From: a virus
DNA length: 64,000 nucleotides
Strand: one strand, 5' to 3'
IMG/VR virus record: IMGVR_UViG_3300028829_004004
Coordinates: 1-64,000 of that record
Part shown: positions 11,333-51,290 of the stretch, piece by piece
How the letters are laid out: the number at the start of each line of letters is the position of its first letter
How positions within the stretch are numbered: position 1 is the stretch's first letter
The notes under the pieces: model-generated
Seen by the model: only the letters and a program-made list of their open reading frames with translations
Database searches by the model: none
Told to the model about the DNA's origin: nothing
Made by a program: the position numbers and the translations under genes

Positions 11333-12312
11333 CGTGATTCCTCAGATTGGTGCCAGTTCCATGCTGTCTCGACAATGCTGTTGAGGGTCTCAAACCTTGG
11401 GGACCATCCCAATAAGTTTCTCGCCTTGTTGGCACACGCCACTAGAACGGGTGGGTCACCTTGGCGTCTACTGGATACCTTGAACTGGGGAGGTACTCCC
11501 GCGACTTGTTCTACTGCTGTGATAACTTGACGAACGGAGTGACCAGTGCCAAGGCCGAGGTTGAAGGCATCCGTTTCCCCTCCCTTGAGTAGGTAGTCAA
11601 GAGCGAGTAGGTGGGCATCCGCGATGTCGGAAACGTGAGTGTAGTCGCGGACGCACGTGCCGTCAGGGGTTGGGTAGTCTGTCCCATGTATGGTGATGTG
11701 ATCTGGTGTGGTAGCAGCCCGGATGACAAGAGGGATAAGGTGGGTTTCCGGGGAGTGCGCTTCTCCTACCTCCCCGTCGGGGTCCGCCCCCGCGGCGTTG
11801 AAGAAGCGAAGAACAACACAGCGGAGAGAGTGGGTGTGGCAGTGCCATTTGATCATTCTCTCAGCGAGTAACTTAGACTCACCATACGGGCTGGTGGGAT
11901 CTTGCGGTGCAGCCTCTTGGATTGGTTGTGAACTGGGGGCACCGTAGGTGGCACAGCTAGAAGAGAATATCATATGGCGAACAGCGGCCCGCCGCATTGC
12001 TTCGAGGAGACCCAAGGTATTAACCGTGTTGTTACGGAAATACTTGTCGGGTTCCTTCATGGACTCACCCACATAAGCATCCGCGGCACAGTGTACGACT
12101 GCGAGAATGGCGTAGACCTCGAAAGTCCGTTGCAGAAGCTGGGTGTCTGCGAGGTCCCCCACAACGAGAGGCCCCCACTTGACAGCCCATGGGTTACCGT
12201 TACGGAAATCGTCGTAAGTAACCGGGGTGAACCCAGCTTGCGCCAAGTGCTTGCACACCTGACTACCAATGTAACCCGCCCCACCAGTGACTAGAATGTT
12301 TTGGCCTCTCAT
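11329..12312 (-). CDS. GalE-like UDP-sugar 4-epimerase
   Basis: A 327-residue short-chain dehydrogenase/reductase of extended type. The NAD-binding loop is TGGAGYIG near residue 9, the catalytic region has SSSCATYG and YGESK (Tyr-x3-Lys), and a C-terminal sugar-binding region follows. UDP-glucose 4-epimerase interconverts UDP-Glc and UDP-Gal. In a phage this would feed UDP-galactose or a related sugar to the glycosyltransferases elsewhere in the window. Other NDP-sugar epimerases cannot be excluded. Confidence 0.8.
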   Translation of the reverse strand: MRGQNILVTGGAGYIGSQVCKHLAQAGFTPVTYDDFRNGNPWAVKWGPLVVGDLADTQLLQRTFEVYAILAVVHCAADAYVGESMKEPDKYFRNNTVNTLGLLEAMRRAAVRHMIFSSSCATYGAPSSQPIQEAAPQDPTSPYGESKLLAERMIKWHCHTHSLRCVVLRFFNAAGADPDGEVGEAHSPETHLIPLVIRAATTPDHITIHGTDYPTPDGTCVRDYTHVSDIADAHLLALDYLLKGGETDAFNLGLGTGHSVRQVITAVEQVAGVPPQFKVSSRRQGDPPVLVACANKARNLLGWSPRFETLNSIVETAWNWHQSEESR

Positions 12313-12663: not shown

Positions 12664-12855
12664 TCAGTTCTTCTTCCCAAATTCTCGGTCGAGGCGCGCT
12701 TGCCAATCAGAGTTTATCCTGTCAAGCTCATCCGCTAACTCTCGTAGGTTACGGGCAGCATAGGCACCACCTGTATTCCACCAGTAGATAAGACCGTCCA
12801 CGTCTTGTACAAACTCCTCGCGTTCATACGCTAATTCCACGATGCTCACTGCCAT
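12664..12855 (-). CDS. Small helical hypothetical protein
   Basis: A 63-residue acidic protein that looks wholly helical, with regularly spaced charges and several Trp. The ATG at 12855 overlaps the stop codon of the glycosyltransferase gene (TAATG), which indicates coupled translation. No family is recognised. Confidence 0.55.
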   Translation of the reverse strand: MAVSIVELAYEREEFVQDVDGLIYWWNTGGAYAARNLRELADELDRINSDWQARLDREFGKKN

Positions 12856-13682
12856 TAGATTATGCCCTTAGCGATGTCGATCATCCCTTCTGCCCAGTGG
12901 TCAGTAGAGAAGCGGGCACGGACGAACTCCATCCCCTTCTTAGCAATCGCTGCACGCTCCTCAGGATTGTTCAGGTAGTAGTCAATCTTGTCGGAGAAAT
13001 CATCGACGCCTTGGAACGTACCGAGGTGTTCGCCGGGGGTGAACGTGTCAGTGATCTCGTCGCACTCATTTGTTAGGATGAACCCTCCTGCTGCCATGAT
13101 CTTAAACAACCGATCTGAGAACCCACCCAAACCCGGTTGAGTGAAGTTCAAGTTGATACGAGTCTCTGACACAGCAATGGCGTGCTCCTCCGGGGTGGCC
13201 TTACGACGGAACGGGAACTCCCGTGTATTCTTGTACTCCCTCCGGTGCCAGTTCTTGATCCGTCCTAGAAAGAGGACATCCCTAACTTTGGGAACGTCGC
13301 GGGGGTAGTCAAAGAGAGGATCGTACCCCTCAAACACATGGGGGACACTAAGCTGCTCCGCTAGTAAACGACTGTGATGTACCATCACCGTAGCGTTTCT
13401 CGCCCGCCGACGCTCACGCCCCGACCAGTGGTCTGTACCATCATTGTACCAATAGATTGTAGGGATCTTATCAGTCAACTCCTTGACATGTACAGGGTGG
13501 AACCCTCGGTACTTCCACACAATTGCGACATCCTTACCGGGGATGTTGTCCATCAAGTCTTTGTACACCTGAGGGTTACCGTTGTACTCAACAGGAGTTA
13601 CCTCATGTCCTAGTTTCTCAAGAGCGCGGACCTTCCCTGCCCCTACCCCTGTTGCAAACCTACCGCCGAAAACGATCTTCAT
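12855..13682 (-). CDS. Glycosyltransferase, GT-B, CgeB-like
   Basis: A 275-residue protein with a GT-B layout. The N-terminal strand is MKIVFGG, the middle has LFLGRIKNWHRREY, and the C-terminal half has RINLNFTQPG, then DRLFKIMAAGGFILTNE and a terminal helix. This matches the glycosyl transferase family 1 / CgeB-like group that uses a nucleotide sugar. The first domain is shorter than in most GT-B enzymes. It is set apart from the SSB gene by a terminator. Confidence 0.65.
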   Translation of the reverse strand: MKIVFGGRFATGVGAGKVRALEKLGHEVTPVEYNGNPQVYKDLMDNIPGKDVAIVWKYRGFHPVHVKELTDKIPTIYWYNDGTDHWSGRERRRARNATVMVHHSRLLAEQLSVPHVFEGYDPLFDYPRDVPKVRDVLFLGRIKNWHRREYKNTREFPFRRKATPEEHAIAVSETRINLNFTQPGLGGFSDRLFKIMAAGGFILTNECDEITDTFTPGEHLGTFQGVDDFSDKIDYYLNNPEERAAIAKKGMEFVRARFSTDHWAEGMIDIAKGII

Positions 13683-19494: not shown

Positions 19495-20766
19495 TTAAAG
19501 ATCCTTGAAGGGTTGTACTTTATTATCGTAGACCACGGAACTATAACCGGATAAGAAGGGGGCATTAAGGATTGTCTCTAGGTTACTAGGGATCAACGTA
19601 ATGAACTCATGGTAGAACCGGCGGGAGAAACGGGCTAACTCACACCCCCTACATCTCCGGCCCTTCCTCTTCTGGGCTTCCGCGTCAGCGATTCTCTTCT
19701 TAGTCTTGTCTGCAAACGTTTGCAAATCGGGGAACAACTCAAGTATCTTGTCGCAGTCCTTCCAACATTGGGTAACCGTGTATGGCTTACCCCTACGTTT
19801 AGGGGGAGGTTGCTTCACAGGGGTCTCCTTCTCCTGTAGCGGGGAGGCGGGCACACCTGCAAGCATAGTACTAACCTTATCTACAGGGAGTTTTCTCTTG
19901 GGGGTGTACAGCCCGGATAGCTGCCGATCCTCCTTCAGTCCTTCTAATTTACTAGCCATACGTTTCCTTACAGCATACATGCCTTCAGTAATTTCCTTCT
20001 CCGGGTCACCTACCGGTTGCAAGGCGTACTCAATTGCCTCTTCAAAAGGGATGTGATCAAACGCCCGTAAGCCGCTATTCGCATAAGTGTTGTAGATGGT
20101 TACCCCTTCTGCCTCAAAGAATCTGCGGACTTCACTGAACATCAAGTTCAGCCCTGCGTAGGAGTTGTTGTTGGACCGGCACCCACCTGTATGTTTCTCC
20201 TCCTTGAACGAGTATGGTTGGTCGGGGTCCATGTGAAAATCGCACCCAACTATAAAAATTTTGGAGAACCCTAACTCATAAAGGAGGCGCATAGCTACCA
20301 GCATGACACTCCGTACGCCCGTTGCTTTCTTGTAGGTCTGGCCCTTCCCAAGTCCCCAGCATACCCGGTTAGAGGTGAGAAACTTCTCGGGGTCAAACCC
20401 CGTTTCCCTCGCGTACTGGTAGACGTTAGGAGCTTCCGTCAACTTTTTGGTATGGGGGACATCTAGCTCGGTGTCCCATAACTGCTTGGTGCAGAACCCT
20501 TGGGGGACAAACTTCATAATAGTCGGGTCAAAGTACACTGACTTTAGGAATCGGTCTGGAGGGTCAACACATGTCCACAAGTTGGGACGCACCGCTTTTG
20601 CTCCGTTGTTCACACACATCCTCGTTATGCCGGGTTTGTACAACAGCGACTTGTCAATCGCTGCCATAGCCTTTGGCCCATTAACGCAGAGGAAAGCAGA
20701 TGCCCCCTTCATCATACCCTTCAGGGGTACTGGTTCATCTTGGCAGTTTAGTATCATGGCGCTCAT
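19495..20766 (-). CDS. DUF115-like protein, putative sugar-modifying
   Basis: A 423-residue protein. The segment GFSKIFIVGCDFHMDPDQ resembles the DUF115/MptE-like Rossmann core found in flagellin-glycosylation accessory factors. An N-terminal part (AFLCVNGPKA) also fits that core. The C-terminal 120 residues are basic with a Cys pair (CRGC). In phages and bacteria, DUF115 proteins sit beside glycosyltransferases, as this one does. The reaction is unknown. A palindrome site inside is read LQTFA. Confidence 0.6.
   Translation of the reverse strand: MSAMILNCQDEPVPLKGMMKGASAFLCVNGPKAMAAIDKSLLYKPGITRMCVNNGAKAVRPNLWTCVDPPDRFLKSVYFDPTIMKFVPQGFCTKQLWDTELDVPHTKKLTEAPNVYQYARETGFDPEKFLTSNRVCWGLGKGQTYKKATGVRSVMLVAMRLLYELGFSKIFIVGCDFHMDPDQPYSFKEEKHTGGCRSNNNSYAGLNLMFSEVRRFFEAEGVTIYNTYANSGLRAFDHIPFEEAIEYALQPVGDPEKEITEGMYAVRKRMASKLEGLKEDRQLSGLYTPKRKLPVDKVSTMLAGVPASPLQEKETPVKQPPPKRRGKPYTVTQCWKDCDKILELFPDLQTFADKTKKRIADAEAQKRKGRRCRGCELARFSRRFYHEFITLIPSNLETILNAPFLSGYSSVVYDNKVQPFKDL
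19711..19724. promoter_or_regulatory. Dispersed palindrome site 7 (in DUF115-like gene)
   Basis: Perfect 14-bp copy in coding sequence, read as LQTFA, the third possible register. Confidence 0.8.
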
Positions 20767-21515
20767 CGCTGGACCTCAGTGTGAGTCTTAGTGTCGTTGT
20801 CTCGTATATGGTTGAGATGGTAAAGATAAGGGAGTGGCATGGATACCCTGCCTACCCTACGTCGGAAGGTTACATCTGACTTAGCTTTCTGGTACTTCTT
20901 CTCCCATGAGTAGTCACGGCAGTTGTTAGGAGGGATATAAAGCCCATCAAAATTCTCTCGCATAGATTTGACCGAAACGATCTGGCAGAAGCCTGCACCG
21001 CAGTTACGCCTCTTCTTCAACCGCGCTCCCTTGGCCTTACCGAAGGGATCTCTAACCCGGTACGGGTACTTATGCGCAGCAACTAGTTTGTCTGCATCCC
21101 CTACAGGCATAGAATACCTCCCGGTGTAGAACATCCGCTTGTCATTCTTGTTCTCCTCTAAGAAGGGGAGTAACTTCTCGAACCACCGGGGACCAAACAC
21201 CATATCACAATCTGAGAAGAATATGAAGTCTGCGTCCGACTCAGCTAACTGACGGTTTCGCACCAGCCCTCTGTACTGTAACGTCTCCGTCCCCACATAG
21301 GGGGTGTGCTTGAAGTCTATGACTATGTTGCTAGACTTAGGGAGGCTATCAAAGAAATGTAGAGTCTGCTCAGTGGTGGGGTTCCCTGTCCGTTCATCAT
21401 AAGCAACATTGAATACCAACTGTGGTATCTCACCAAGCTGCTCCAGTAGGGAGGAGATCATCCACGACATACGCCTTTGAAAATAGTGGCAGGATACTGC
21501 AATCTCAACTTTCAT
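20763..21515 (-). CDS. Glycosyltransferase family 2-like
   Basis: About 250 residues from the ATG at 21515, which overlaps the upstream stop as ATGA. GT-A fold: MKVEIAVSCHYFQ first strand, VRNRQLAESDADFIFFSDCDMVF with the D-x-D metal site, and a C-terminal catalytic region with CGAGFCQIVS and an Asp-Tyr pair. It transfers a nucleotide-activated sugar; the acceptor is unknown. Part of a four-gene glycosylation block downstream of the fibre genes. Confidence 0.7.
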   Translation of the reverse strand: MKVEIAVSCHYFQRRMSWMISSLLEQLGEIPQLVFNVAYDERTGNPTTEQTLHFFDSLPKSSNIVIDFKHTPYVGTETLQYRGLVRNRQLAESDADFIFFSDCDMVFGPRWFEKLLPFLEENKNDKRMFYTGRYSMPVGDADKLVAAHKYPYRVRDPFGKAKGARLKKRRNCGAGFCQIVSVKSMRENFDGLYIPPNNCRDYSWEKKYQKAKSDVTFRRRVGRVSMPLPYLYHLNHIRDNDTKTHTEVQR

Positions 21516-22195
21516 CGGGGGGAGAATCCGAGTCTTTTCATCTGGTACCTTAGTACAGGCTTCTCTAACTGGGTAGCTACATACCACATCACAGTGTCAT
21601 GGCTCGGGACCGGGAGTCGGTCACCACACAGTTTGCTGACTACCTTAGTTAACTCAGTTGACTGCAAACAGTAGTAGCTGGCTATCCGTTTATGTCCATA
21701 TCTCTCGTTGGGGGGTAGGCCCTCCGGGAAGAGCCGGGTTGCTCCGGGGAACTTATCTAACCACCAATCATCGAGTACGTTCAACCAGTGTTGGGTCTGA
21801 CCGGGGTCCCCTTTGACCTTGGTATACCCCCACTTGTGTCCGACTAGGTCGTAGTCGAACCACTCATCGAAGAAGACCTTACAGTACCTATCGTTGTTCC
21901 GCTGTAGGAGGTGAACGTCTGCGTCTAGCTTTACCCAGTAAGGGGTCTTTACTTTTTCCGCGGCAAGGAACACAAACCCTGACAGCATCTTTTCCCTTTG
22001 GTTGTCTCCCGCCGGGGGGAACTCCCACTCAAAGATCTGTAGGTCCTTAGCGGGGAGAATGGTGCGGATCTGTTCATCGGTTACTGAGTCGTCCCTAAAC
22101 ACAATGAGGGGGTAGGACATTATGTTCATCCGCTGTTTCCAGTTTGCTGCATTCATCTTGAACTTCTTCATGTACTTACGATCCACTGCGGTCAC
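21512..22195 (-). CDS. Glycosyltransferase-like protein, GT-A
   Basis: A 227-residue protein opening with the strand TAVDRKYM and holding KLDADVHL, a D-x-D metal-nucleotide site. Cys and His residues in the last third could line an active site. The start is GTG at 22195, since no better start lies between it and the upstream in-frame stop; GAGGT sits about 17 bases before it. Likely works with its neighbours on one glycan. The family is not certain. Confidence 0.6.
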   Translation of the reverse strand: MTAVDRKYMKKFKMNAANWKQRMNIMSYPLIVFRDDSVTDEQIRTILPAKDLQIFEWEFPPAGDNQREKMLSGFVFLAAEKVKTPYWVKLDADVHLLQRNNDRYCKVFFDEWFDYDLVGHKWGYTKVKGDPGQTQHWLNVLDDWWLDKFPGATRLFPEGLPPNERYGHKRIASYYCLQSTELTKVVSKLCGDRLPVPSHDTVMWYVATQLEKPVLRYQMKRLGFSPR

Positions 22196-22217
22196 AAACG
22201 TAACCCGCTCGTCTACC

Positions 22218-23726
22218 TCAGTGAACTACCCCTAAGTCTCCCTGTGCTTTGATCCCTATGTCCTGCACCCTCAAAGGGATGTGAAGCCTGCCCCGGAACC
22301 CACGGGAATTCCGAATGAGGGCTAACTCTGAGTCGCCCTCCTCTACCCCTCGGGATATCGGCCAGTTATCAAGCTGGAATTTAATCAGCTTAGTTGACCA
22401 CCATGAAGGGGAGGTTGACCCCGCCCTGACCCCGCGGTCTAGGAAAGAGATATGGTCTGCTTTCTGCGCTTCTGCTATACATCGAAGGTCCGCGAACTTA
22501 AACCCCTTGCCCGCCACCTTATCATCTTCCCAAATTATAGCATCGTGCTTGGTTTGTTCAAAACACCACTTGAGAGATAGACCATGCCCGACATTCTCAG
22601 TCCTCTGATGGAATACTGCGTCATCAAAGAGGGGAGTCACCTCTTTGATCTGGGAGAGGGTCTCCTCTATCTGAGACTCCATAGCAGGTACGTAATCAAG
22701 GTGTGCAACCCAACGTAACTTACACCCCTGCTTGTCAAACTTAGATAGGAAGTTACGCATTGCCTCCCCAACGGTAGCCCGTGGGACAATAGTGGTGACA
22801 ACGTCAAGCCACACCCCCTCACTTTTGGGAGGGTTCCTCCGAGAGGGAGGAGGGTAGATTGGGATAGCGGGTTCCTCTTGTACTTGCTCCACTTCAGGTT
22901 GTCCCCCTTTTGAAATGTAGGGAGATACTGGGAGACGAACCTTCCGCATGTGGTCGGATAGTGCTTTGTCCCCTAGCGGATCTGAAAGGTAAAGGAGTTC
23001 TTGTTTCTCCCAGTAATAACTACGCCACTTCTTACTTAATGCCCACTTGCCTGTGTGCTTCCTGCCATGGAAGTGGGCTACCACACACCCGTCAAGACTA
23101 CCATACCGTGCAGACCGATTGTACTCCTTGGGGGCAAGGTAATGTTTGAAGGAGGGGGCAAGGATCTGAGCACTAATCTCGTCTGGAATGAATAGGTTTT
23201 TTGCTGCCCCTAAGGGAGCGAGTTCTGTCCAGACCTTGATTATCTCGTGCCCCTTCTGGATACCAAAGACGCCTGTATTGATTGCCGTCCCATAGTTCAG
23301 GGCTTGCTCAATGTAGGGAGGGGAAACAATCCCCCGCCACCCTTCTATCCTGCCTTGGATAGTCTTACCTCGGGTGAACCAATCCTCGAAGTTAGTGAAG
23401 ACTAGCCCATGTGTCTCGGTCCACTCAAAAAGCTGAGAGATATCCTGCATTACAAGAGTGTCAGCATCTAAGAAAACAACAGTGTCGTGCTGGAGGTATT
23501 CCAGTATAGCCACTTTGGTGACCAGTGTTTTCTCCTGCCCCCTCTCCGGGAAGGTAACGATCTTCACCGAGTATGACTCGCACACGTCCATCAGTAGGGG
23601 GTGGGGTTCCCCCTCGTTATACACAACAACATCACCTGAGTAGTGGTCGCGTAAAGAGGCAATACTCACTGCCATGCGAACTAAACATTTGGTTCCAGAG
23701 TTAAAGTAAACTACAGCCTTGCTCAT
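22218..23726 (-). CDS. Two-domain glycosyltransferase (GT8-like plus GT2-like)
   Basis: About 502 residues from the ATG at 23726, selected because GGAAGG stands just upstream and it overlaps the previous stop (ATGA). The N-terminal half is GT8-like: a MAVSIASLRDHY opening and VVFLDADT with the D-x-D site at 87-89. After a Pro-rich linker (PPPSRRNPPKSEG) the last 200 residues form a second transferase-like domain with IIWEDDKV. Fusion suggests two sequential sugar additions. Confidence 0.65.
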   Translation of the reverse strand: MSKAVVYFNSGTKCLVRMAVSIASLRDHYSGDVVVYNEGEPHPLLMDVCESYSVKIVTFPERGQEKTLVTKVAILEYLQHDTVVFLDADTLVMQDISQLFEWTETHGLVFTNFEDWFTRGKTIQGRIEGWRGIVSPPYIEQALNYGTAINTGVFGIQKGHEIIKVWTELAPLGAAKNLFIPDEISAQILAPSFKHYLAPKEYNRSARYGSLDGCVVAHFHGRKHTGKWALSKKWRSYYWEKQELLYLSDPLGDKALSDHMRKVRLPVSPYISKGGQPEVEQVQEEPAIPIYPPPSRRNPPKSEGVWLDVVTTIVPRATVGEAMRNFLSKFDKQGCKLRWVAHLDYVPAMESQIEETLSQIKEVTPLFDDAVFHQRTENVGHGLSLKWCFEQTKHDAIIWEDDKVAGKGFKFADLRCIAEAQKADHISFLDRGVRAGSTSPSWWSTKLIKFQLDNWPISRGVEEGDSELALIRNSRGFRGRLHIPLRVQDIGIKAQGDLGVVH

Positions 23727-24178
23727 ATTGCCTTCCATTTCCCTAGTGGGCAGGACTCAACCGCGAGTCCCGCTTTCGCTACCATTATACAACCACAGTC
23801 CCCGCACACTCCCTCGTCAGGATCAAATAATGCGCATGAGTTGCAGATATCTAACCGAGTGTTGTGGACTTCTTTTGTTACCTTTATATGCTTGTCTCGG
23901 ACTAACCCCCTTATCACCCTCTTCCCTGCCCCGGCTAAGTTCTTAATCCTCTGAGGGAGAGGTGGTGGGGTTATGGGGGTGGTGGTGAGCCAGTGGTTAT
24001 TTTCAACACTCACCTCTTCGGGTACCCCCGCGGCACACTCGTACGCACAGGGAGCGTCTCGCCACTCAACCCCGTTGGATTCCGCTTGCGTGATAAGGTG
24101 ACGGCGAAAAGTGCAGTCCCGTAAACAAGCGTGACAAAAAGACTCCGGGACTGCCTTCTGCAAACGTTTGCATTTCAT
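23723..24178 (-). CDS. Cys-rich zinc-binding protein
   Basis: A 151-residue protein with two Cys clusters. The N-terminal one is C-x2-C-x3-C, and the C-terminal one has CNSCALF, then CGDCGC and a final CPLGKW, a pattern seen in phage and bacterial zinc-ribbon proteins near tail genes. The second and third codons onward contain a dispersed palindrome (MKCKRLQ). The function is unknown. It links the fibre genes to the glycosyltransferase block by a 4-base overlap. Confidence 0.6.
   Translation of the reverse strand: MKCKRLQKAVPESFCHACLRDCTFRRHLITQAESNGVEWRDAPCAYECAAGVPEEVSVENNHWLTTTPITPPPLPQRIKNLAGAGKRVIRGLVRDKHIKVTKEVHNTRLDICNSCALFDPDEGVCGDCGCIMVAKAGLAVESCPLGKWKAI
24159..24172. promoter_or_regulatory. 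Dispersed palindrome site 8 (at gene start)
   Basis: Perfect 14-bp copy beginning in the third codon of the Cys-rich gene, close to its ribosome binding region. Confidence 0.8.
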
Positions 24179-24192
24179 ATCTTACCTCTTAC

Positions 24193-25509
24193 TTAAATGT
24201 AAGGGAACGGGTCAGCAAACAACGAACCCGAAGGTGTGTAGTTTGATAGGCTAACCGTCCCGCCATTCCTTATGTAAACCTGATCTATGTAACCTTCAAC
24301 ATCTGCATCAGTATCTTCTAAATTATTTCCAAGACAGAGAACTCCGTCAGACTCATGGATAGTATCTGACAGGGTAAAAGAGTGGATGGAGGTACCGTCA
24401 AGAAAGATCTTCGCTGAACTACCCGACCGGGCTATTCGGACCTCATACCATGTGCTTGACGAGATAGATGAGGTGACATCCACCTGCTCAATCGTGAAGT
24501 CGGTCCCGTTAGATGTCCATGCGAAAGCGAGATACCAGATAGAGCCACTTTTATAGAAGTCCATGGTCCAATCGCGGAAGGGGGGTGCCTGCCACTTCGC
24601 GATGTGTGTCTGATTGTTCTCGTTCCCGTTCCAGAAGAAAGCATACTGAATAATGAAGTTGTTGTCAAGGAGATTAAAGCAGGACTGATCATCAACCAAA
24701 GCACCATCGTCAGAAGGTTCCTGACTACGAACGAGCGCGTAAGTATTATTCCCATTCATCTTTAGTGAATCGGTGCCCAAGTAAGACTCAGTGCCTGAGA
24801 CTGCCGCGCCTCCATTGAAAACAAGAGTGTGCCCTGCTGCGGAGACATCCTCATAAGTCCCACCGTCGAAGTTGAGAGCTAGTGGTACCTCGTCACAAAG
24901 TTCCGAACTAGAGGAGTTGTTACTGAGAGACGCGCTAGATGATGAGGAGCTAGAGGATGAGGAACTAGAACTCGATGACGAGGAGGAGTCGGTCCCCTCA
25001 CAATTGGCACAGGAGGGGTAGGGTCCAGACACATCTGTGATAAGGGTGAGTTCCTGACAAGGGTCGGAGTCCTCCTCAATGTCAGGGATCTCGTCAATGA
25101 TCTCGTAGCAGGTACCTGTTATTGAGACCACATCTCCTACATCGTACCCCGGTAACTCCTCCACACACACGTAAGCACAAAAGGGAGGTCCATCACACTG
25201 GTCTAACTTAAAGTATGATGGGCAACCCGATGAGCTTGAGCTTGAGCTTGAGCTTGAGCTTGAGCTTGAGCTTGAGCTAGAGGACGAGAGGAAGCATTCC
25301 TCGTACAACCAGTGGCCTAAACTAGAACTAGATGATGAGGAGTTAGACGAGAGAGAAGAAGAGGAACTGGAGGATGAGAGGAAGCATTCCTCGTACAACC
25401 AGTGGCCTAAACTAGAACTAGATGATGAGGAGTTAGACGAGAGAGAAGAAGAGGAAGAAGACTCTTCGTCGCAACAATTATCGCAAGCGTTCTCTATAGG
25501 CCAAAACAT
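24193..25509 (-). CDS. Serine-rich tail fibre with LamG-like domain
   Basis: A 438-residue protein. The first 200 residues alternate runs of up to about 20 Ser with short Cys-bearing segments. A 30-residue unit containing SLGHWLYEECFL is duplicated in tandem. The C-terminal 220 residues look like a concanavalin A/laminin G-like lectin domain (LALNFDGGTYED, then WYEVRIARSGSSAKIFLDG), typical of carbohydrate-binding phage adhesins. It is probably a receptor-binding or decorating tail protein. The Ser tracts are candidate O-glycosylation sites. Confidence 0.65.
   Translation of the reverse strand: MFWPIENACDNCCDEESSSSSSLSSNSSSSSSSLGHWLYEECFLSSSSSSSSLSSNSSSSSSSLGHWLYEECFLSSSSSSSSSSSSSSSSSSSSGCPSYFKLDQCDGPPFCAYVCVEELPGYDVGDVVSITGTCYEIIDEIPDIEEDSDPCQELTLITDVSGPYPSCANCEGTDSSSSSSSSSSSSSSSSSSASLSNNSSSSELCDEVPLALNFDGGTYEDVSAAGHTLVFNGGAAVSGTESYLGTDSLKMNGNNTYALVRSQEPSDDGALVDDQSCFNLLDNNFIIQYAFFWNGNENNQTHIAKWQAPPFRDWTMDFYKSGSIWYLAFAWTSNGTDFTIEQVDVTSSISSSTWYEVRIARSGSSAKIFLDGTSIHSFTLSDTIHESDGVLCLGNNLEDTDADVEGYIDQVYIRNGGTVSLSNYTPSGSLFADPFPYI
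25232..25279 (-). repeat. Hexanucleotide repeat coding serine
   Basis: Eight tandem GAGCTT-type units (the last GAGCTA) on the plus strand encode a Ser run in the fibre gene. Unit-number change keeps the frame. Confidence 0.85.
25286..25459 (-). repeat. 90-bp tandem duplication in the fibre gene
   Basis: Two nearly identical 90-base units, for example GAAGCATTCC at 25291 and again at 25381. Each encodes about 30 residues (WLYEECFL plus a Ser run). Confidence 0.8.
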
Positions 25510-25525
25510 CTAGGGAGTCCATTTC

Positions 25526-25819
25526 TCAGGGGAGTGTGGCAGGGTAAAAATCGGAGGCGGGATCGGACAACAAAGGCTTTACCTCAGCCTCTGTCAAAAA
25601 GGTAACCCCTGCGTCTACCATCTGTTGGACTGCGGCTGCTGCGGCAGGGATAGTCTGTGCAATGTCATTGTCCCACTCAATCAAACATAGGCGGGGATTG
25701 ACATCCTCACGACTTAAAACCACCGACTCCATCACCGTGTTTAACCCGGTGGCCCGGATCAACTGGATATGCTCCTCTGTTAACTGGGAGTGATGAATCA
25801 TTGCGTACTTGATATCCAT
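25526..25819 (-). CDS. Small tail-operon protein, unknown
   Basis: About 97 residues from the ATG at 25819, which overlaps the upstream stop (TAATG). It has a mixed helix/strand pattern, an Ala-rich middle (IPAAAAAVQQM) and a short C-terminal tail. Its place between two serine-rich fibre genes suggests a tail-fibre chaperone or attachment factor, but no motif shows this. Confidence 0.5.
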   Translation of the reverse strand: MDIKYAMIHHSQLTEEHIQLIRATGLNTVMESVVLSREDVNPRLCLIEWDNDIAQTIPAAAAAVQQMVDAGVTFLTEAEVKPLLSDPASDFYPATLP

Positions 25820-26992
25820 TAGCAAGGTACCTCAGTTTGGATGACAGACCCGAGCGAACCGTTAAAGTACTCGCCATCGTTACTGTTCCCGGATTGGTCT
25901 GGTATAGTGGACAGAGCCACTACCTCTTCCGCACGGTAGTGAATGAAAGTACTGACTGCGGGGGTTATAGGGCAAGCAGTCGCCCCACCAAAGTCCGCGA
26001 AGTCTGATGGGTCGTCATACCCTTTTGTGACAATAAACTCATCAAAGTAGCAATCGGGTTCCATCATCTGGATATAACTGGTGGGAGAAGCGAGAGTCCC
26101 TGTGATTGTGGTACTACTCGCTTCCACGGTATTGTCTATTATAATCTGGGCATTCCCTGTGGTGGTATTGATCCGAATAAGAACATGATGCCAAGCACTG
26201 TCTGCCCACCCCCCACCGGTTTGAATGCCAATGTCACCGGGGCGGTAGAAGATAGCGCGTATACTTGACCCTGTATCGGGCCGAACAAACATCCAAGTGT
26301 TGCCGCCGTTGTTGCCTTTGATAAATGGTTTTGCTTGGTTGGCTGAGATCCACTTCATAAAGAAACTGACGGTTGCTGTGTTCCCCCAACTTGAGAAACC
26401 AGAGTCAGTACGTAGGTAGTCATTACTCCCGTCGCTCTTAAACGACTCAGTAGACTCAAACCCTGCGCTGGAACTGGAACTGGAACTGGAACTGGAACTA
26501 CTTGAAGAAGAGCTACTCGAAGAAGAGCTACTTGAAGAAGAGCTACTCGAAGAAGAGCTACTTGAAGAAGAGCTACTCGAAGAAGAACTCGAAGAAGAAG
26601 AGCTACTCGAAGAAGAACTCGAAGAAGAAGAACTAGACTCAAGAGCACCAGAAGAACTGGAGGAGGAACTAGACTCAAGCGCGCCAGAAGAACTGGAGGG
26701 GACCAGAAGAACTAGAGGAGGAACTAGACTGAAGGGGACCAGAAGAACTAGAGGAGGAACTAGACTGAAGGGGACCAGAAGAACTGGAGGAGGAACTAGA
26801 CTGAAGGGGACCAGAAGAACTAGAGGAAGAACTGGAAGAGCTTTCAAAGACGCAAGCGTCACAGTCACTGAAGATAGCGTCTACGTCTTCCAACGTGTGA
26901 GTGATGGGGGCAACGGTAGTCCCCACCGATTGGTAGCATACCCCGTCAATGCGAAGCACCTCACCATAGTAGTCTTTTGTTACAACACTCAT
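25819..26992 (-). pseudogene. Serine-rich tail fibre, split by a frameshift
   Basis: Two frames together make one fibre-like gene. The first (26992 down to about 26700) starts MSVVTKDYYGEVLRID and enters GPLQ-polyserine repeats. The second (about 26700 to 25819) continues with GALE-polyserine repeats and a C-terminal LamG-like domain. Compared with neighbouring 36-base repeat units, the junction near 26695-26705 lacks 17 bases, which breaks the frame. It could be a real inactivation, a phase-variable state or a sequence-assembly error in the repeats. Confidence 0.65.
26470..26830 (-). repeat. Degenerate polyserine-coding repeats
   Basis: Short GAAGAAGAGCTACTC-type units (about 26500-26640) followed by 36-base units coding eight Ser plus GALE or GPLQ (about 26640-26830). 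Strongly biased codon use and near-identical units make this stretch prone to slippage. Confidence 0.75.
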
Positions 26993-28354
26993 TTACGCAC
27001 CAGAGCAGGGGTCAGGGCAAGCCCACCGGGGGTCTGCCGAATCGTTGATCAAGAAGGAGTAGCCCTCTCCCATACAAAGAGTCTGAGGCTCTATGGTGTA
27101 ACAGCAGGTTTCCGGGTTGATCCCCGTTACGACTGCGATACATACACATCTGTCGTCGCCTGAACTTGAAGAAGAAGAACTACTTGAGTTTGAAGATTCC
27201 GAGGACTTGAAGGCGGATGAACTTGAGGAAGAGGAAGAACTCGAAGAAGTAGAACTTGAAGAAGTAGAGCTTGAGGAACTTGAGGAGGAACTAGACTCAA
27301 GAGCACCAGAAGAACTTGAGGAGGAACTAGACTCAAGAGCACCAGAAGAACTGGAGGAGGAACTAGACTCAAGAGCACCAGAAGAGGAGTCGTCAAAAGT
27401 GTCGTCCTCCAATACCTCAACCTCTACCCGGCGAACACAGATGAGGCTGGCACCCGAGCTAGAGGAACTGGAGGAGGAGAGTTGGTCATTGGGGTCACCT
27501 TCAAACTCAGGGGGTACTGAAGGGACAGGATCGTTATCTGGGTCCTCCACTAGGAACTCGATATAGAAGCTACCGCGGCTCGCTGCCTCAGTACACTTGA
27601 ACTCAATGAACCGGTCAGTGGCGCGTTGTACTTCGATAGAACCTAGACCCACGTCGGAGTCGTCAATGTTCCAAGAGTAGGAAGCCGACGTTGGATTCTT
27701 TGTCAACCAATCTACTGTACACTGCTTGGTGTCCCCCACTACCATGAAAGGTTCTACCGTGAAGTCCGTGATCTTAGTAGTTCCGGGGCAGTTCCCCTTC
27801 ATGTTCTCTGTGACTAGGTTAGCTGTGTTAGTCACGGACACAACAGTGTCTCCGGGGGCACCACCTTGACCCAATGCGGCAGGAGCAGCCGCGGCTTCCG
27901 CGTTGAAAGTGTCTTGGTTCCTATTGGAGGAATTAAGGTGGTCCCTCCAACTCTCGCGGATCTCAAGGCTGAATGCCCCTACCTCTGAAGAGACACTAGC
28001 ACAGCCGCTATCATTGTTGGCGAATACCCGCCACTTCCACTTCATCCCTGAGTAGATGTGCTGGCCTAACGTCAGGTCGTATGTCTTTGTCTCTCCTGCC
28101 CCACTAAGTACCTTCTCACTGCGGACCATAGGTCCTCTGAAGTTAGTGTCGGGGCACCACTGCACAATGTAGAAGTCGGTGTTAGGCATCTCTTGCCACT
28201 CAAGAGTGACCCCCGACTCAATAACATCCTTGGCCTCGAACACCTTCTCGTTGTGAGGGTTCTTGAGGAAAGGAGGGGTAAGCGCACAAGCGGTGTACAG
28301 GTCTACTGGACCTGACCCCGCCTGTATAGAAATTGAATGTGCTTCTGTGGCCAT
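26993..28354 (-). CDS. Serine-rich tail structural protein
   Basis: A 453-residue protein. Residues 30-130 form a fibronectin type III/Ig-like beta domain (VTLEWQEMPNTDFYIVQW, then KWKWRVFANNDSG). A second beta region follows (DFTVEPFMVVGDTKQCTVDW). The last third is polyserine with GALE spacers, closing with a short Cys-rich module (CCYTIEPQTLC and CPDPC). It lies just downstream of the tape measure and a small tail gene, so a tail-tip or fibre-base role is likely. Confidence 0.6.
   Translation of the reverse strand: MATEAHSISIQAGSGPVDLYTACALTPPFLKNPHNEKVFEAKDVIESGVTLEWQEMPNTDFYIVQWCPDTNFRGPMVRSEKVLSGAGETKTYDLTLGQHIYSGMKWKWRVFANNDSGCASVSSEVGAFSLEIRESWRDHLNSSNRNQDTFNAEAAAAPAALGQGGAPGDTVVSVTNTANLVTENMKGNCPGTTKITDFTVEPFMVVGDTKQCTVDWLTKNPTSASYSWNIDDSDVGLGSIEVQRATDRFIEFKCTEAASRGSFYIEFLVEDPDNDPVPSVPPEFEGDPNDQLSSSSSSSSGASLICVRRVEVEVLEDDTFDDSSSGALESSSSSSSSGALESSSSSSSSGALESSSSSSSSSSTSSSSTSSSSSSSSSSSAFKSSESSNSSSSSSSSSGDDRCVCIAVVTGINPETCCYTIEPQTLCMGEGYSFLINDSADPRWACPDPCSGA
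27280..27392 (-). repeat. 36-base GALE-polyserine repeats
   Basis: Three near-perfect 36-base units, each coding eight Ser plus GALE, in the tail structural gene. The same unit type recurs in the broken gene at 26.6 kb. Confidence 0.8.
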
Positions 28355-28746
28355 TAGGTAGCGTACGAATTCACAGTGGTTACATGGAAGGACCCGCTGA
28401 TGTCAAACAAGCCGCCCCCGTACACTAGCGGTGGGTCTATCTCAAGGAAGCGTACCTCGTAAGAGTCCCCCCAGTATCCGTTGAAGGAACGTTCGTTCGG
28501 GAGATCGTTAACATCATAGTCTGTGTAGTAGCCCAGCATCTGAACGTAGTCTGCTTTGCTCCCCCCTTTGATGTTCCAAGGGATGAGTATATCACCGTCC
28601 CGGATATCGGGGGCCGCATGAAGGACGGTCCCTGCCGCGGTCTGGATATTCTGGAACCGCTTCTTAGGAGCGGCAGGCTTGTAGCTGAACTGTTTTGGTA
28701 AAGCAATGATGCCTATGTATGCGTAAGTAATCCCAGTAGTGGCCAT
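28354..28746 (-). CDS. Small tail protein after the tape measure
   Basis: A 130-residue beta-rich protein with aromatic-rich segments (FNGYWGDSYEVRFLEID). It directly follows the tape measure gene and overlaps the next gene start (TAATG). In siphophages this place is usually taken by distal tail or minor tail proteins. The family is not recognised from sequence alone. Confidence 0.5.
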   Translation of the reverse strand: MATTGITYAYIGIIALPKQFSYKPAAPKKRFQNIQTAAGTVLHAAPDIRDGDILIPWNIKGGSKADYVQMLGYYTDYDVNDLPNERSFNGYWGDSYEVRFLEIDPPLVYGGGLFDISGSFHVTTVNSYAT

Positions 28747-31700
28747 TATACAATTGCTCCAAGGCTGGCGTTAAAGAACATGTTCTCCAACTTGCGAGTC
28801 AACTCGTCCTCGTCTATGGATGTGTTAATCGTGACTTCTAAAGTACGGTTGTCAGTGATCTCGGTTGCTCCCCCCGTCAGGGAAGAGGTGGCGTCATCAG
28901 AAGTCTTAGGTACACCAGAAGAGGGTAGGCCCTGAGCCATGTCGTCAAGGAAGGCGGGCCGTAGCTCAAAGTCAGGACCGAGGGTACGCCCCTTCATGTA
29001 CTCCTGCCAGATCGCGTCTATCTCCTCTTTAGGGATAATATTACCCCCGGTCTTGTCCAAGATAAATGACTTAGCCCGGTCAATTGCCTCCCCCATCCGC
29101 TCCATGGCACCTTCCGGTATCTTATGAGCATCTGGGTTGGATAGTAGTGGAGCTAGAGGTGCGTACTTCGGTTCTTTGTGTGGGACGGGACGTAGTTCAC
29201 GCTGTTTCTCGCTATCTGGTTTACCCATCCGAGCTTTGATGGTCCCATACTCTCTTTGGCCAAGGGGGTGGGCAATCATCCCTCCCTCAGAGAAGATTGC
29301 AGCCCTTTCTCTTCGCGTAGCTTCTTTCTTCTCAGCCGCCTTACGACGCAACTCAGCTATCTTAGCAGCACGAGGGTCAAGGGTCCCGCGTGTCCGGGCT
29401 ATCGCTGCCTCCATCACTGCTGCCCCGTGCTTGGCTCGGGCGGATGCGTTCCCTATCTTCTGCTTGATGTTTGCCCCTAGCTTACCGGGTCTACCCGTTC
29501 GGAAGCGGTTGCCTAACTTCAGACCATTCGATGCAAACTTTTGCACCTTCTCCGCTGTGTTGTTAGCAACCTCTCCTACCTTCTCCGCTACCCCTCCTAC
29601 CTTCTCCGCTGCCCTCTTCGCTGCCTTCTTTGCGTTCTCCACAACTGTGATCGAGGGGTCGTCCGCAAGGAGGTCTAACCCTGAATCCTCAAACTCAGGC
29701 CCTTCACCTATCCAAGGGGGTACACTTACCTGCCATGGGTCTGGTCGTAGTCCGTCGATGATCGGAGTGCTTTCTGAGGCTTCCCCCTCTGCTGCCGCTG
29801 CTGGGGCCGGTTCGCCCGCTGCTGCTGGGGCCGGTTCGCCCGCTGCTGCTGCTGCTGCTGCTGCTGCCGCCTGCCCCCCCTCCTTCTCACCTTTCTCCGC
29901 TCCCCCCGCTAACTTCGCTAACTTCTCCGAACTGTCCGAGAGCATCTGTTGCACCCGAAGGAGGAGACCTAAAAATCCGGACTGCTCTTTGACTGCCTTA
30001 GGCTGCGCCTTAGTCTGCTCCTTATCCTCGTTGATGAGCAACTGAAGGTAGCTTTCAAGTATCCTCTTCTCCCCGGAAGCAGTAGCATTCTTGATCTCCT
30101 CCCGGACTGACGCAATCTCTTTGGCGTTACTATCAAGGAGAGACCCTATGGCCCCCTCTGTGTGGATATCGTGGGTGTACGCGCTACCACGAGTGTTGAG
30201 CGCCTTTGCCGCATCCGACACCTCGTCAGCGTCGGGGAGATCATCTGATCCTACTGCGGGAACCTGCGCGCCTAGCCCCGGTAGTTGGGCTGGGCCTGCT
30301 TGTTGTGCTCCAAAGAAGTTGTCTGCCGCTCTAGCCACCTCCAAGATGTCACGGATAAACGCCGCCCTAGCTCCCTCATCGAAGATTGAGTAGCCCTTAA
30401 TTGCGTTAACCACCCCCTCAATGAACTTCACCCCCATTGACTTGGCAAAGTCCCCGAGCGTACCATGTATGCTATCCATAGCGTCGGCAATAGCTTGGGT
30501 GACTTGGTTGGAGAACTCCTGAAGAGGATCATCCGCCTCGAGGATGGTGACGAAAGCCGCCACACCATTATGAAAGCTGTCAATAACCCCCTTTAGAGTG
30601 GGGATCATCTTCTTCACTGAGGCAGTGAAGGAATCGAAGATGATCGCCCCTGACTCCGCAAGGTTCGCCATGAATGGGAATAGCATCTTAGCAAAGAATG
30701 CGCCTAGTACCCTAAAGGCGTTGTACACTCTCTCTACCCATGACGAGCCTAACTCGTCGCTGATCCCAAGAGCTTTACGCAACTCAGCACTTCCGTCCAC
30801 TGCGGCTTTCCACGCTGTATTCATTGCAGCAAGGAAGCGGTTTAGGGAGTCACGAACTACACCAAAGTTCTCTGTGATCCCTTTAGTCAACCCGAGGAGG
30901 ACCGTGGGGATAAGGGTCTTCAAGACAATGACTGCCTTCACCACGAACTTAGTGAGAGTCCCGAGTTCTCGCATAATAAACTTGATCGACTTACCTAAAG
31001 TGCGTAAGAGGGTTTTGGACTTGCCCTTCCCTTCCTTAAAGATAGATGAGAATACAGAAGATACCGCTTCCCCAAATCCCTTGAACTCCACTATAGCTAC
31101 GTCGAGCAAGCTAGAGATGAAGGAGATTAGAGGGGGGACAACACGGTGAACCAGTGAGCGGGATTGCGCAAATAGCACTACCATAACTCCATGGACTGCC
31201 GAGAGGTTATCTGCAATTGAAGCCAAAGCGGCACTGAACCCACTTGTCTTTACGTTGTTCATCATAGTAAAGGCAGCGACAAGTTCGTCAATAACCAACG
31301 CAACTAAGCGGTCACTCTCCTTGACGAAGCTCATAATGATATCCTTCAAAGCAACGAAGGAGCGGGTCACCGATTCGATGACATCCATCTTGTTTAGAGC
31401 CGCTTTAACTTGATCAAACTTCCGTACCAAATTAGAGATGGTAGAGGCAAGTAGCATTACCCCGAAGACAAGCGCAGCTACCACAGGGAGGGTGGTAGCG
31501 GTGAGAGCTAAACCGATAGACTCGATAACTCCTGCGAAGGCTAAGACCACACCAGACAGGACCATGACCGATATACCAAATGCCAGCAGCCCTACTGAGA
31601 GAGTACCAAAAATCAACCCAAGGACCTGTGCCGCTTGCTTACTAGATTTTAGGAACACCAGTACGCGATCCGCTTGTTCTAGCGCCCACTCGATCAACTC

Positions 31701-33113
31701 TCGGAGAGGTTCCTTCACTGATTGGAAAACTTCATTAGAGATACTGGCGATCTTAGAAGATAACCGCAACAGCGCACCAATTACGTTGTCCTCAATCTGA
31801 TCTGCCATTGAGGCACCAAGGTTCCCCTCTTGCGCTTCCTTTACCCCTGAGGTTAACTGCTTTAACTTCTCAAGGTTCTTCAGCAGGGACAAAGCCGCCG
31901 GACCACCACGTTGACCAAAGAGTTGGTACATGGAGGCGACGTTAGTCATGTCGTCTTCCAACTCGTCAAGGCTGGCTCCCGCCTCCAAAGCAAGCTCACG
32001 GAAAAGAGCAACAGCTTCGTCAGGGGAGATGTCCTCGGTGACGTTAGAGACCGTGGTCATAATCGCGTCGGCATCAATGCCTCTACGACGGAGTGCCGCC
32101 ATAGACTTAGTGGCTCCAAAGCCTGCTTCTTGAATCTTCTCAAGTATCTGGATTAGTGATACCTTGCTCGGATCAATATCGTCAAAGTCCAATCCAAGAG
32201 TAGTTAGCCCCTTTGCCACAGATGAGTTAGAACGGTCGGACAGGCGGGTGAACACACGCGCAAGACCGGTACCAGCACGGGAACCGCGGATTGCTTGGTC
32301 AGCCATCACACCAATGGCGGCAGTGATCATCCCCAAGTCTTGCTCAAGGAGACTCGCTTGGCCACCTACGAAACTCAAAGCGGTCCCGATCTCGGGGATA
32401 GTACCACTAGAGTTCTGGGCTACTTTGCCGATACCGTCTACGACATCCATGATAGCCGCAGCGTTCTCTTCAGTGGTCTTGGTGCCATCGCTGCCAAGTT
32501 TGAAAGTCTTCGCGATCATACCAAGGGTAGACGCTGCCTCGGCTGGGTCGAGGTCGCCAATAGAGGCTAGGGTTAAGGAGGCGCGGGTAGTCGAGGCTAT
32601 ACGCGCATAATCCTTTATCGCATCTCCTGCTGCGTTAAGGCGCCCTGTCTCGGCAAGGCCCTTCACCGTGATCTGCTCCATCGCTTTCGCTACTTGGACT
32701 GCGTTAAAGCGCGTCTCCTCAGCGAACTTGATGGAGCTTTGGGTGAGCATGTCAAATTCTTTACTGGTCTCGCTAAGAACAGCCTTAGCACCGACCATGT
32801 CCATGGCACGCTCAAACTCAGCGCCCACTTTCATCATCTTCACAAACCCCTTGGTCATCGCAGCACCAGCGAACGTTGCGTTCAAGCCGGTGGTACGGAG
32901 GTTTCTTCCCACTTGGTTGACGTTGTTACCAAGTGCGCGCAGCGATTTGCTTGCCATTGCCGCGGTGGAGGCAATGGCTTTTACAGAAGCTACGGAGCTA
33001 ACAGTAGCAGTTTTTGCTACATTCTTAGTTAAGCGAGCCAAGCCGCCTATCTGTGTGACGGCTTGACTTGTATTCGCTATAACTTTTAAGGTAGCTGAAC
33101 CTAGGCCTGCCAT
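28746..33113 (-). CDS. Tail tape measure protein
   Basis: A 1455-residue protein, the longest in the window. The N-terminal 350 residues match the TP901-type tape measure core (LRTTGLNATFAGAAM, FNAVQVAKAMEQITVKG). Around residues 480-550 is a long hydrophobic block that could form transmembrane helices during DNA entry. A long helical section, an Ala/Glu/Pro-rich linker coded by GCT repeats (near 29.8 kb), and basic helical ends follow. It sets tail length; at about 0.15 nm per residue the tail would be roughly 200 nm, an estimate only. Confidence 0.9.
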   Translation of the reverse strand: MAGLGSATLKVIANTSQAVTQIGGLARLTKNVAKTATVSSVASVKAIASTAAMASKSLRALGNNVNQVGRNLRTTGLNATFAGAAMTKGFVKMMKVGAEFERAMDMVGAKAVLSETSKEFDMLTQSSIKFAEETRFNAVQVAKAMEQITVKGLAETGRLNAAGDAIKDYARIASTTRASLTLASIGDLDPAEAASTLGMIAKTFKLGSDGTKTTEENAAAIMDVVDGIGKVAQNSSGTIPEIGTALSFVGGQASLLEQDLGMITAAIGVMADQAIRGSRAGTGLARVFTRLSDRSNSSVAKGLTTLGLDFDDIDPSKVSLIQILEKIQEAGFGATKSMAALRRRGIDADAIMTTVSNVTEDISPDEAVALFRELALEAGASLDELEDDMTNVASMYQLFGQRGGPAALSLLKNLEKLKQLTSGVKEAQEGNLGASMADQIEDNVIGALLRLSSKIASISNEVFQSVKEPLRELIEWALEQADRVLVFLKSSKQAAQVLGLIFGTLSVGLLAFGISVMVLSGVVLAFAGVIESIGLALTATTLPVVAALVFGVMLLASTISNLVRKFDQVKAALNKMDVIESVTRSFVALKDIIMSFVKESDRLVALVIDELVAAFTMMNNVKTSGFSAALASIADNLSAVHGVMVVLFAQSRSLVHRVVPPLISFISSLLDVAIVEFKGFGEAVSSVFSSIFKEGKGKSKTLLRTLGKSIKFIMRELGTLTKFVVKAVIVLKTLIPTVLLGLTKGITENFGVVRDSLNRFLAAMNTAWKAAVDGSAELRKALGISDELGSSWVERVYNAFRVLGAFFAKMLFPFMANLAESGAIIFDSFTASVKKMIPTLKGVIDSFHNGVAAFVTILEADDPLQEFSNQVTQAIADAMDSIHGTLGDFAKSMGVKFIEGVVNAIKGYSIFDEGARAAFIRDILEVARAADNFFGAQQAGPAQLPGLGAQVPAVGSDDLPDADEVSDAAKALNTRGSAYTHDIHTEGAIGSLLDSNAKEIASVREEIKNATASGEKRILESYLQLLINEDKEQTKAQPKAVKEQSGFLGLLLRVQQMLSDSSEKLAKLAGGAEKGEKEGGQAAAAAAAAAAGEPAPAAAGEPAPAAAAEGEASESTPIIDGLRPDPWQVSVPPWIGEGPEFEDSGLDLLADDPSITVVENAKKAAKRAAEKVGGVAEKVGEVANNTAEKVQKFASNGLKLGNRFRTGRPGKLGANIKQKIGNASARAKHGAAVMEAAIARTRGTLDPRAAKIAELRRKAAEKKEATRRERAAIFSEGGMIAHPLGQREYGTIKARMGKPDSEKQRELRPVPHKEPKYAPLAPLLSNPDAHKIPEGAMERMGEAIDRAKSFILDKTGGNIIPKEEIDAIWQEYMKGRTLGPDFELRPAFLDDMAQGLPSSGVPKTSDDATSSLTGGATEITDNRTLEVTINTSIDEDELTRKLENMFFNASLGAIV
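29532..29545. promoter_or_regulatory. Palindrome variant (GCAAACTTTTGC core)
   Basis: One mismatch at the central CG, inside the tape measure gene. It lies in the widest gap between perfect sites (24.2 to 34.7 kb). Confidence 0.4.
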
Positions 33114-40552: not shown

Positions 40553-40566
40553 TACTACTCCGTGTA

Positions 40567-40878
40567 TTAGTCTTCCCAACCCCCAAGGGTAAGGGAGAGG
40601 TTCGGCCAAGGTGCAGGTTCAAGGTTACCTACATGTCTGAGCTTATTGATCTCATCCCTAGCCCACCCGTGAAGCTGCCAGTGCTTGGACAACTGTGAGT
40701 CCTGCTTCTTGTCAAGCTCCGACTTCTGTGAGAGGTCATCAATCGACTCCATCATGTATCGCTGCCGTTCAGTCATTACCTTCATTTCGGCATTCGTATC
40801 GAATGTCCACTTCATTGAGAAACCGACAGCGGCAAAACAGATAGATACGAGTATCCCGTAGATAGCATCTTTAGTCAT
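40567..40878 (-). CDS. Small membrane-anchored coiled-coil protein
   Basis: About 103 residues from the ATG at 40878. An N-terminal hydrophobic segment (YGILVSICFAAVGFSM) is followed by a long helical region rich in Glu, Lys and Gln. The same layout as the gene at 36.0-36.4 kb suggests related roles, perhaps holin or spanin. It starts 16 bases past a palindrome. Confidence 0.5.
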   Translation of the reverse strand: MTKDAIYGILVSICFAAVGFSMKWTFDTNAEMKVMTERQRYMMESIDDLSQKSELDKKQDSQLSKHWQLHGWARDEINKLRHVGNLEPAPWPNLSLTLGGWED

Positions 40879-50693: not shown

Positions 50694-50709
50694 CAAAGGA
50701 ATGGAAAGG

Positions 50710-51288
50710 ATGTCTAACATTAACCGAAGGTTAGGTCTGGCGTTTGTTCATATCCCAAAGACCGGAGGAGTCGCTGTGTGCGAGTCCCTTGGGTTAGCAA
50801 TACGAGGGCATCAGCGTCTCTCGGAGATGCGCCGGTTCCGTCGTAGGTACTTCTCTTTCTGCTTCGTCCGCAACCCTTGGGACCGAATGGTCTCTGCCTA
50901 CTCGTACTTCAGGGCAGGGGGAAGAGGCCACCGGAATGATATCAAAACTATGCGCGTTGTGCGAGAGAGTTCTACCTTCCCTGAGTTCTGCTCACGATTA
51001 GAAGACCCCGAGTTTAAGCGAAGGCTAGAGAGATGTCGCTCCCCTCACTTCCTACCTCAGGTCCACTGGCATGACCCGCGGATTAAATTGGTGGGGAGGT
51101 TTGATAACTTTGCGGAGGACTTCAAGGAGGTCTGCACGCAGGTGGGCTTACCGGACACTGAGCTTTTAGTTCGGAATACTAGTGAGCACTTACCATACCC
51201 CGAGTACTACACTGAGAGTGCTGCTCAGATTGTTGAGCGGGTCTACAAAGAAGACATTGAAAAATACAACTACAAGTTTGGAGATTGA
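50710..51288 (+). CDS. Sulfotransferase (copy 2)
   Basis: About 192 residues from the ATG at 50710; the ATG at 50701 is too close to the AAAGGA box, so the second is preferred. HIPKTGG at 14-20 binds the 5'-phosphosulfate and CFVRNPWDR near 51-59 the 3'-phosphate of PAPS, as in the Sulfotransfer_2 family. It is the first rightward gene and is followed directly by an APS kinase gene, so the pair can supply and use PAPS. Confidence 0.8.
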   Translation: MSNINRRLGLAFVHIPKTGGVAVCESLGLAIRGHQRLSEMRRFRRRYFSFCFVRNPWDRMVSAYSYFRAGGRGHRNDIKTMRVVRESSTFPEFCSRLEDPEFKRRLERCRSPHFLPQVHWHDPRIKLVGRFDNFAEDFKEVCTQVGLPDTELLVRNTSEHLPYPEYYTESAAQIVERVYKEDIEKYNYKFGD

Positions 51289-51290
51289 TT

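Follow-up and report, generated by a model that had tools for sequence, protein, structure and literature searches.

A glycosyltransferase cassette with a Maf-like core recurs beside polyserine tracts of virion proteins on viral contigs

The window analyzed here comprises 64 kb out of a 65,525-bp IMG/VR virus record (IMGVR_UViG_3300028829_004004), and family scans of its proteins revealed a tailed-phage plan with a terminase, a portal, a tape measure, a DNA polymerase, and helicases. On the minus strand of its tail region, three serine-rich genes are followed by a cassette encoding, in this order, a DUF6171 zinc ribbon, a GT8 plus GT2-like glycosyltransferase, a GT-A domain, a GT2 glycosyltransferase, and a DUF115-like protein, after which comes a baseplate-hub-like gene. 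The initial annotation of this DNA had placed serine-rich tail genes ahead of glycosyltransferases, and both the order and the coordinates proved correct when the open reading frames (ORFs) were reread and the domains scanned. The co-occurrence of serine tracts and transferases is not due to chance. It probably reflects a phage-specific pathway that O-glycosylates the phage's own virion in the cytoplasm, with the polyserine tracts as acceptors. Self-glycosylation of tails had been proposed at the outset, and the proposal gains inferential support from the Maf-core fold, the enrichment of serine-rich ORFs, and the unrelated families that carry serine tracts. What we observed directly are the gene content, the folds, the conserved DxD motifs, and the recurrent co-occurrence and co-orientation of the cassette with serine tracts.

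To compare transferase loci with random ones, we fetched loci from 2.9 million viral contigs by the GT-A profile (n = 46) or the DUF115 profile (n = 79) alone, and 112 random viral loci, fetched with an arbitrary 15-mer, served as the control. When a serine-rich ORF was defined as having at least 18 serines in 30 residues, one was present in 31 of the 46 GT-A loci and 47 of the 79 DUF115 loci, compared with 2 of the 112 controls. A stricter threshold (at least 20 in 30) left 29/46, 43/79, and 0/112, respectively, with a Fisher p of 3e-19 for the GT-A set. The complete cassette of DUF115, GT8, GT-A, and GT2 is present in the majority of the 46 loci and in none of the controls. Serine-rich ORFs lie on the same strand as the GT-A gene in 46 cases and on the opposite strand in 2 (n = 48), and 30 of 39 GT-A clusters remained serine positive after dereplication at 70% identity. 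Tracts of Thr, Asn, Gln, Glu, or Asp showed no enrichment, occurring in 0 to 1 of the 46 GT-A loci. Gly- and Pro-rich ORFs are frequent in the DUF115 set only; one DUF115 clade has a Ser/Gly-rich gene as its immediate downstream neighbor, and most of the Pro-rich ORFs are shadows of this gene on the minus strand. At L308:10705-12321 and at similar loci among L312-L375, DUF115 sits directly upstream of same-strand Ser/Gly-rich genes with SGSGS and SSGGG repeats, and the L308 product has a segment that resembles, by eye, a HINT/intein-type domain.

With serine masked, 55 serine-rich proteins fell into 33 families. In relatives, the tracts occur on a head-completion-domain protein, a head-closure Hc2-domain protein, and baseplate/LamG-like proteins, and a 13-member group occupies the expected position of the major tail protein, an identity based on gene order. 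Since the serine-rich proteins beside the cassette are mostly unrelated outside the tract, it is the tract itself, rather than one fiber family, that travels with the cassette. The acceptors had originally been named as tail fibers; tail proteins do carry tracts, yet the term is too narrow and has to be widened to virion proteins, because relatives bear tracts on proteins of head completion, head closure, and the major tail position. The association was also approached from the opposite direction, with 47 viral contigs picked only for encoding polyserine and 48 random contigs. A strong DUF115 relative was found in 5/47 versus 0/48, and PF00535 in 13/47 versus 2/48 (p = 0.002). The link is weaker in this direction, and it is no more than supportive because the two contig sets differ in length.

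Several observations weigh against the glycosylation of serine tracts by this cassette. The control loci average only about 9 kb, compared with about 17 kb for the GT-A loci (1021 kb over 112 loci versus 779 kb over 46), and the rate of serine-rich ORFs per kilobase is still about 20-fold apart, in favor of the GT-A loci. Owing to shared ancestry, the loci are not fully independent: at 50% identity 10 of 16 clusters are positive, and at 40% identity 3 of 7. No serine-rich ORF lies within reach in 15 of the 46 GT-A loci, several of which are on truncated contigs. Among the polyserine contigs, 42 of 47 are without this DUF115 family, and thus serine tracts exist without it too. Finally, in the window record itself, one serine-rich gene and one transferase gene are broken.

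The protein that ties the cassette to known protein glycosylation is the DUF115-like one (19495-20766, minus strand). Its DUF115 label, given initially, is weak by sequence, as the protein scores below the curated PF01973 cut-off (15.8 versus 34.6 bits; E 0.012), and strong by structure. A model of its 266-residue core (residues 3 to 268; predicted local distance difference test score [pLDDT] 88.9) has a Maf/sialyltransferase-type fold, and its best solved match is Maf 5mu5 (residues 255 to 516), with a Z score of 14.6 over 198 residues; Foldseek gave no match for DUF115 at E 0.001, and the Maf match came from a second-look aligner. The next matches are HPPK (10.8) and the Cst sialyltransferases (about 10), and the model has the Maf_flag10/GT42-like catalytic fold. 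Maf enzymes transfer ulosonic acids activated with cytidine monophosphate (CMP) onto Ser or Thr residues of flagellin, and the pfam01973 domain at their center is similar to Cst-II (PMC11339370).

The remaining cassette proteins are mainly glycosyltransferases, and the DxD motif is kept in all three DxD families, GT8, GT-A, and GT2. The first of them (22218-23738, minus strand) combines an N-terminal GT8-like and a C-terminal GT2-like domain, with PF00535/PF01501 matches and a retained DxD motif. Its GT8 profile reaches glycogenin (E 2e-5) with an invariant D88xD90; this profile similarity together with the motif places the protein in GT8, although the Pfam GT8 model itself stays below its cut-off. 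The GT-A domain (21512-22195, minus strand) was modeled with a pLDDT of 75 and matches GT-A folds such as those of Ktr4 and glycogenin. Some relatives carry it as a fusion with a radical SAM domain (L004:12122-13585, L009:9983-11371, L010:9950-11368, and L012:9974-11401). The 274-residue GT2 protein (20763-21587, minus strand) exceeds the PF00535 cut-off narrowly (23.9 versus 23.3 bits), and its profile reaches TarS/SpsA (E 5e-5) with an invariant D102xD104, which together place it in GT2. This protein and the GT-A domain protein correspond to the two GT-A-like transferases listed in the initial annotation. The Cys-rich protein listed there is likewise present, as a DUF6171 zinc ribbon (23723-24178, minus strand; PF19668, E 1.9e-7; phrog_13558, E 1.4e-17). 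In four relatives (L265:8553-9572, L274:8617-9630, L286:8431-9564, and L290:5565-7067), the DUF115 ORF starts with a Cys-rich stretch that resembles this zinc ribbon by eye, possibly a fusion of the two partners.

The three serine-rich tail genes, expected between 28.4 and 24.2 kb, are all there. Downstream of the tape measure (28746-33113, minus strand) and directly after a 130-residue gene, serine-rich protein 1 (453 residues; 26993-28354, minus strand) carries its tract in the second half. Serine-rich gene 2 (25819-26992, minus strand) has a run of 57 serines, the longest among the tail-region genes of the window, and a C-terminal domain past the tract. One of its 36-bp serine-coding repeats, near 26692-26705, is short by 17 bp; the tract therefore shifts frame, leaving two overlapping ORFs in place of a single one (26675-26992 and 25819-26868). 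Between genes 2 and 3 lies an ORF of 99 residues, without a serine tract and with no function assigned (25526-25825, minus strand). Serine-rich protein 3 (438 residues; 24193-25509, minus strand) has three serine tracts and a C-terminal LamG/ConA-like domain (PF13385, E 3.6e-9; phrog_3545, E 6e-12), and also matches baseplate families. When the C-terminal domains of proteins 2 and 3 were compared, no significant similarity was found. The tracts draw on all six serine codons (TCN and AGY), a usage shared with other genes of the window, and tandem repeats are present at the DNA level within the serine-coding region. Since both TCN and AGY codons occur, the tracts look selected as residues, and we ruled out a DNA microsatellite on the basis of this codon mix.

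These components suggest how the system might work. Glycosylation of the serine tracts by the cassette would take place in the cytoplasm and precede or accompany virion assembly, with the first sugar placed on serine by the Maf-like DUF115 enzyme, by the GT-A/GT8 enzymes, or by both. If an ulosonic acid comes first, the Maf-like protein would be the candidate for priming, and if a hexose does, GT-A or GT8; the remaining glycosyltransferases would then extend the chain. In the phage of the window, sulfotransferases supplied with phage-made 3'-phosphoadenosine-5'-phosphosulfate (PAPS) may sulfate the glycan. Glycosylated tracts could form stiff, mucin-like, extended, and protease-resistant stalks that hold lectin-like (LamG-like) tips off the tail and shield the virion, and in relatives with a tract at the C terminus of the protein at the major tail position, the tract would form a coat. 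Tentatively, and with less confidence than we place in the glycosylation of the tracts as such, the serine tract could be a portable acceptor tag, attached in numerous uncultured phages to different virion proteins and served by a shared, phage-specific Maf-like cassette, here with sulfated multisugar glycans.

Other roles of the transferases were weighed. They might alter the host envelope (lipopolysaccharide or capsule) against superinfection, as in serotype conversion, leaving the tracts as flexible linkers. Genes for cytidylyltransferases, methyltransferases, and sulfotransferases are, as is generally known, found in surface-polysaccharide clusters too. Phage glycosyltransferases often modify the envelope (PMC12619734). 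However, the cassette proteins have no hydrophobic segment typical of membrane proteins (best 19-residue mean hydropathy, 1.55), no cassette protein matches the membrane proteins of gtr serotype conversion (the GtrA flippase or membrane glycosyltransferases), and the cassette genes are codirectional among tail genes. An envelope target also leaves the tie to serine tracts and the Maf-like fold unexplained, and we regard it as unlikely.

We judge it equally unlikely that the enzymes glycosylate virion proteins away from the tracts, on the capsid or the tail tube, the tracts being linkers common in the same phage group. Polyserine linkers of the Saccharophagus type are, as general knowledge has it, usually seen as spacers, and the many polyserine contigs without this DUF115 fit such a role. 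There is also a precedent: mycobacteriophage glycosyltransferases are believed to attach glycans to the C termini of capsid and tail-tube subunits (Freeman et al. 2023, as described in the excerpts of PMC12619734 and PMC11256854). Against this stand the single cassette that accompanies 33 unrelated serine-rich families and the specificity for serine over the five other residues counted above. Glycosylation of phage DNA bases is very improbable. Phage glycosyltransferases can hypermodify DNA (work cited in an excerpt of PMC12619734), and the window has a C5-methylase-like gene; nevertheless, no base hydroxymethylase or dedicated hypermodification gene appeared among the window proteins scanned, in a scan that was not exhaustive, and the tail-gene surroundings of the cassette and its protein-glycosyltransferase fold also speak against DNA as the target. 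None of these three alternatives (envelope, other virion sites, or DNA) explains the same-strand meeting of unrelated serine-tract proteins with one cassette. That DNA repeat expansion produced the tracts as a side effect, and that they adjoin the transferases by chance, is scarcely credible and largely refuted already, since the DNA-level tandem repeats that would favor it encode serine with all six codons and the association recurs strongly.

Tract glycosylation by a Maf-like cassette would have partial counterparts elsewhere. The Maf flagellin O-glycosyltransferases (DUF115/MptE-like, PF01973) share the catalytic-core fold, the cytoplasmic location, and a serine-rich surface polymer as neighbor; unlike them, the window protein falls below the Pfam cut-off and has its place in a phage tail region, next to GT8, GT-A, and GT2 partners, rather than among flagellin genes. 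The Gram-positive serine-rich repeat adhesins, a textbook case, also pair a serine-rich stalk protein with its own cytoplasmic glycosyltransferases, but those are GtfA/GtfB with accessory secretion, in place of GT8, GT-A, GT2, and DUF115 with homopolymeric serine on virion proteins. Mycobacteriophage virion glycosylation likewise involves phage glycosyltransferases and structural-protein targets; in the window, glycosyltransferase genes lie beside structural genes, whose products would be the targets. The excerpts cited above report no serine homopolymer or Maf-like enzyme, and this distinction is one of description only. The glycosylated fibrils of the Megavirinae (PMC10117803) resemble the present case, by description only, in that sugar synthesis is virus encoded and virion surface proteins are the proposed targets of glycosylation, but those are giant viruses of eukaryotes. 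A literature search for glycosyltransferases in connection with polyserine or otherwise serine-rich tails of phages returned nothing relevant, and the coupling of a Maf-like cassette to polyserine was not found in it. Mycobacteriophage virion glycosylation and Maf in flagella are already known, and their combination with polyserine virion proteins appears new.

If the tract is a portable tag, phages would possess a layer akin to mucins or proteoglycans, made of a hitherto undescribed kind of virion glycoprotein. If tract glycosylation as such holds, Maf-type protein O-glycosylation would gain a phage branch, and with it a set of enzymes for which homopolymeric serine may serve as a minimal acceptor. 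The finding would also bear on the construction, extension, and shielding of phage tails, and the combination of a Maf-like core, a GT8/GT-A cassette, and serine tracts would serve as a genomic rule by which uncultured phages with glycosylated virions could be predicted.

Among 50,697 named phage records, tblastn with five of the glycosyltransferase and DUF115 proteins gave no match, and neither did serine-rich protein 1, for which BLAST masks low complexity. DUF115 relatives occur in metagenome-assembled genomes (MAGs) of Verrucomicrobia; with GT-A in 1 and DUF115 in 3 of 387 genomes there, the family looks mainly viral. On three Verrucomicrobia MAG contigs (L014, L015, and L018), DUF115 relatives stand amid bacterial-looking genes, with serine-rich ORFs nearby in L015 and L018 and with GT8, GT-A, and GT2 as well in L014; these may be prophage remnants or genes in cellular use.

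Outside the cassette, the window encodes further possible participants. A sulfotransferase (50701-51288, plus strand; PF03567, E 2.1e-11) overlaps the gene for an adenosine 5'-phosphosulfate (APS) kinase (51285-51785, plus strand; PF01583, E 2.8e-42); the pair would allow the phage to produce PAPS and to sulfate a target, possibly its own glycan. A second sulfotransferase (55304-55987, plus strand; PF03567, E 2e-6; PF00685, E 1.1e-5) adjoins a further GT8-like glycosyltransferase far from the cassette (56743-57603, plus strand; hidden Markov model E 1.9e-38), which has a DxD at the aligned position. On the minus strand are a nucleotide-sugar epimerase/dehydratase (11329-12312; PF01370, E 1.6e-54), another glycosyltransferase (12855-13682; PF13524, E 3e-25), and a 1001-residue multidomain enzyme of GT9-like plus GT4-like type (37604-40609; PF00534, E 6e-20; PF01075, E 2e-8), the last located between capsid-region and head-tail adaptor genes. 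The sulfotransferases, APS kinase, epimerase, and extra glycosyltransferases may all act on the same glycan. Among the 46 GT-A loci, CTP_transf_3 cytidylyltransferases occur in 15, FkbM in 18, other methyltransferases in 21, and cupins in 34, and 14 encode proteins with a sulfotransferase-like PRTGTTW motif, a tentative assignment as they have no Pfam match; all these classes (cytidylyltransferase, methyltransferase, cupin, and PRTGTTW) are found in 0 to 1 of the 112 controls. The cytidylyltransferases are suggestive of a CMP-sugar donor, as in Maf chemistry.

A sibling contig (L003), 99.95% identical to the window, has the GT8, GT2-like, and GT-A domains in one ORF of 759 codons between stops, and L007, L008, and L014 likewise carry GT8 and GT-A within a single ORF. 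Relative to L003, the window is without 34 bp at about 22223, by which the GT8 plus GT2-like gene is truncated and the GT-A domain split off. The two-domain glycosyltransferase originally described therefore holds for its GT8-like and GT2-like parts, but not for its end, as the sibling ORF runs on into the GT-A domain. The gene listing was similarly right in its order, but one serine-rich gene is frameshifted and two of the glycosyltransferase genes are a single ORF in the sibling. L003 starts inside the serine tract; the 17-bp shortfall of serine-rich gene 2 is counted relative to its repeat unit. Both differences could be assembly errors or slipped-strand variation; that 34 is twice 17 is probably a coincidence.

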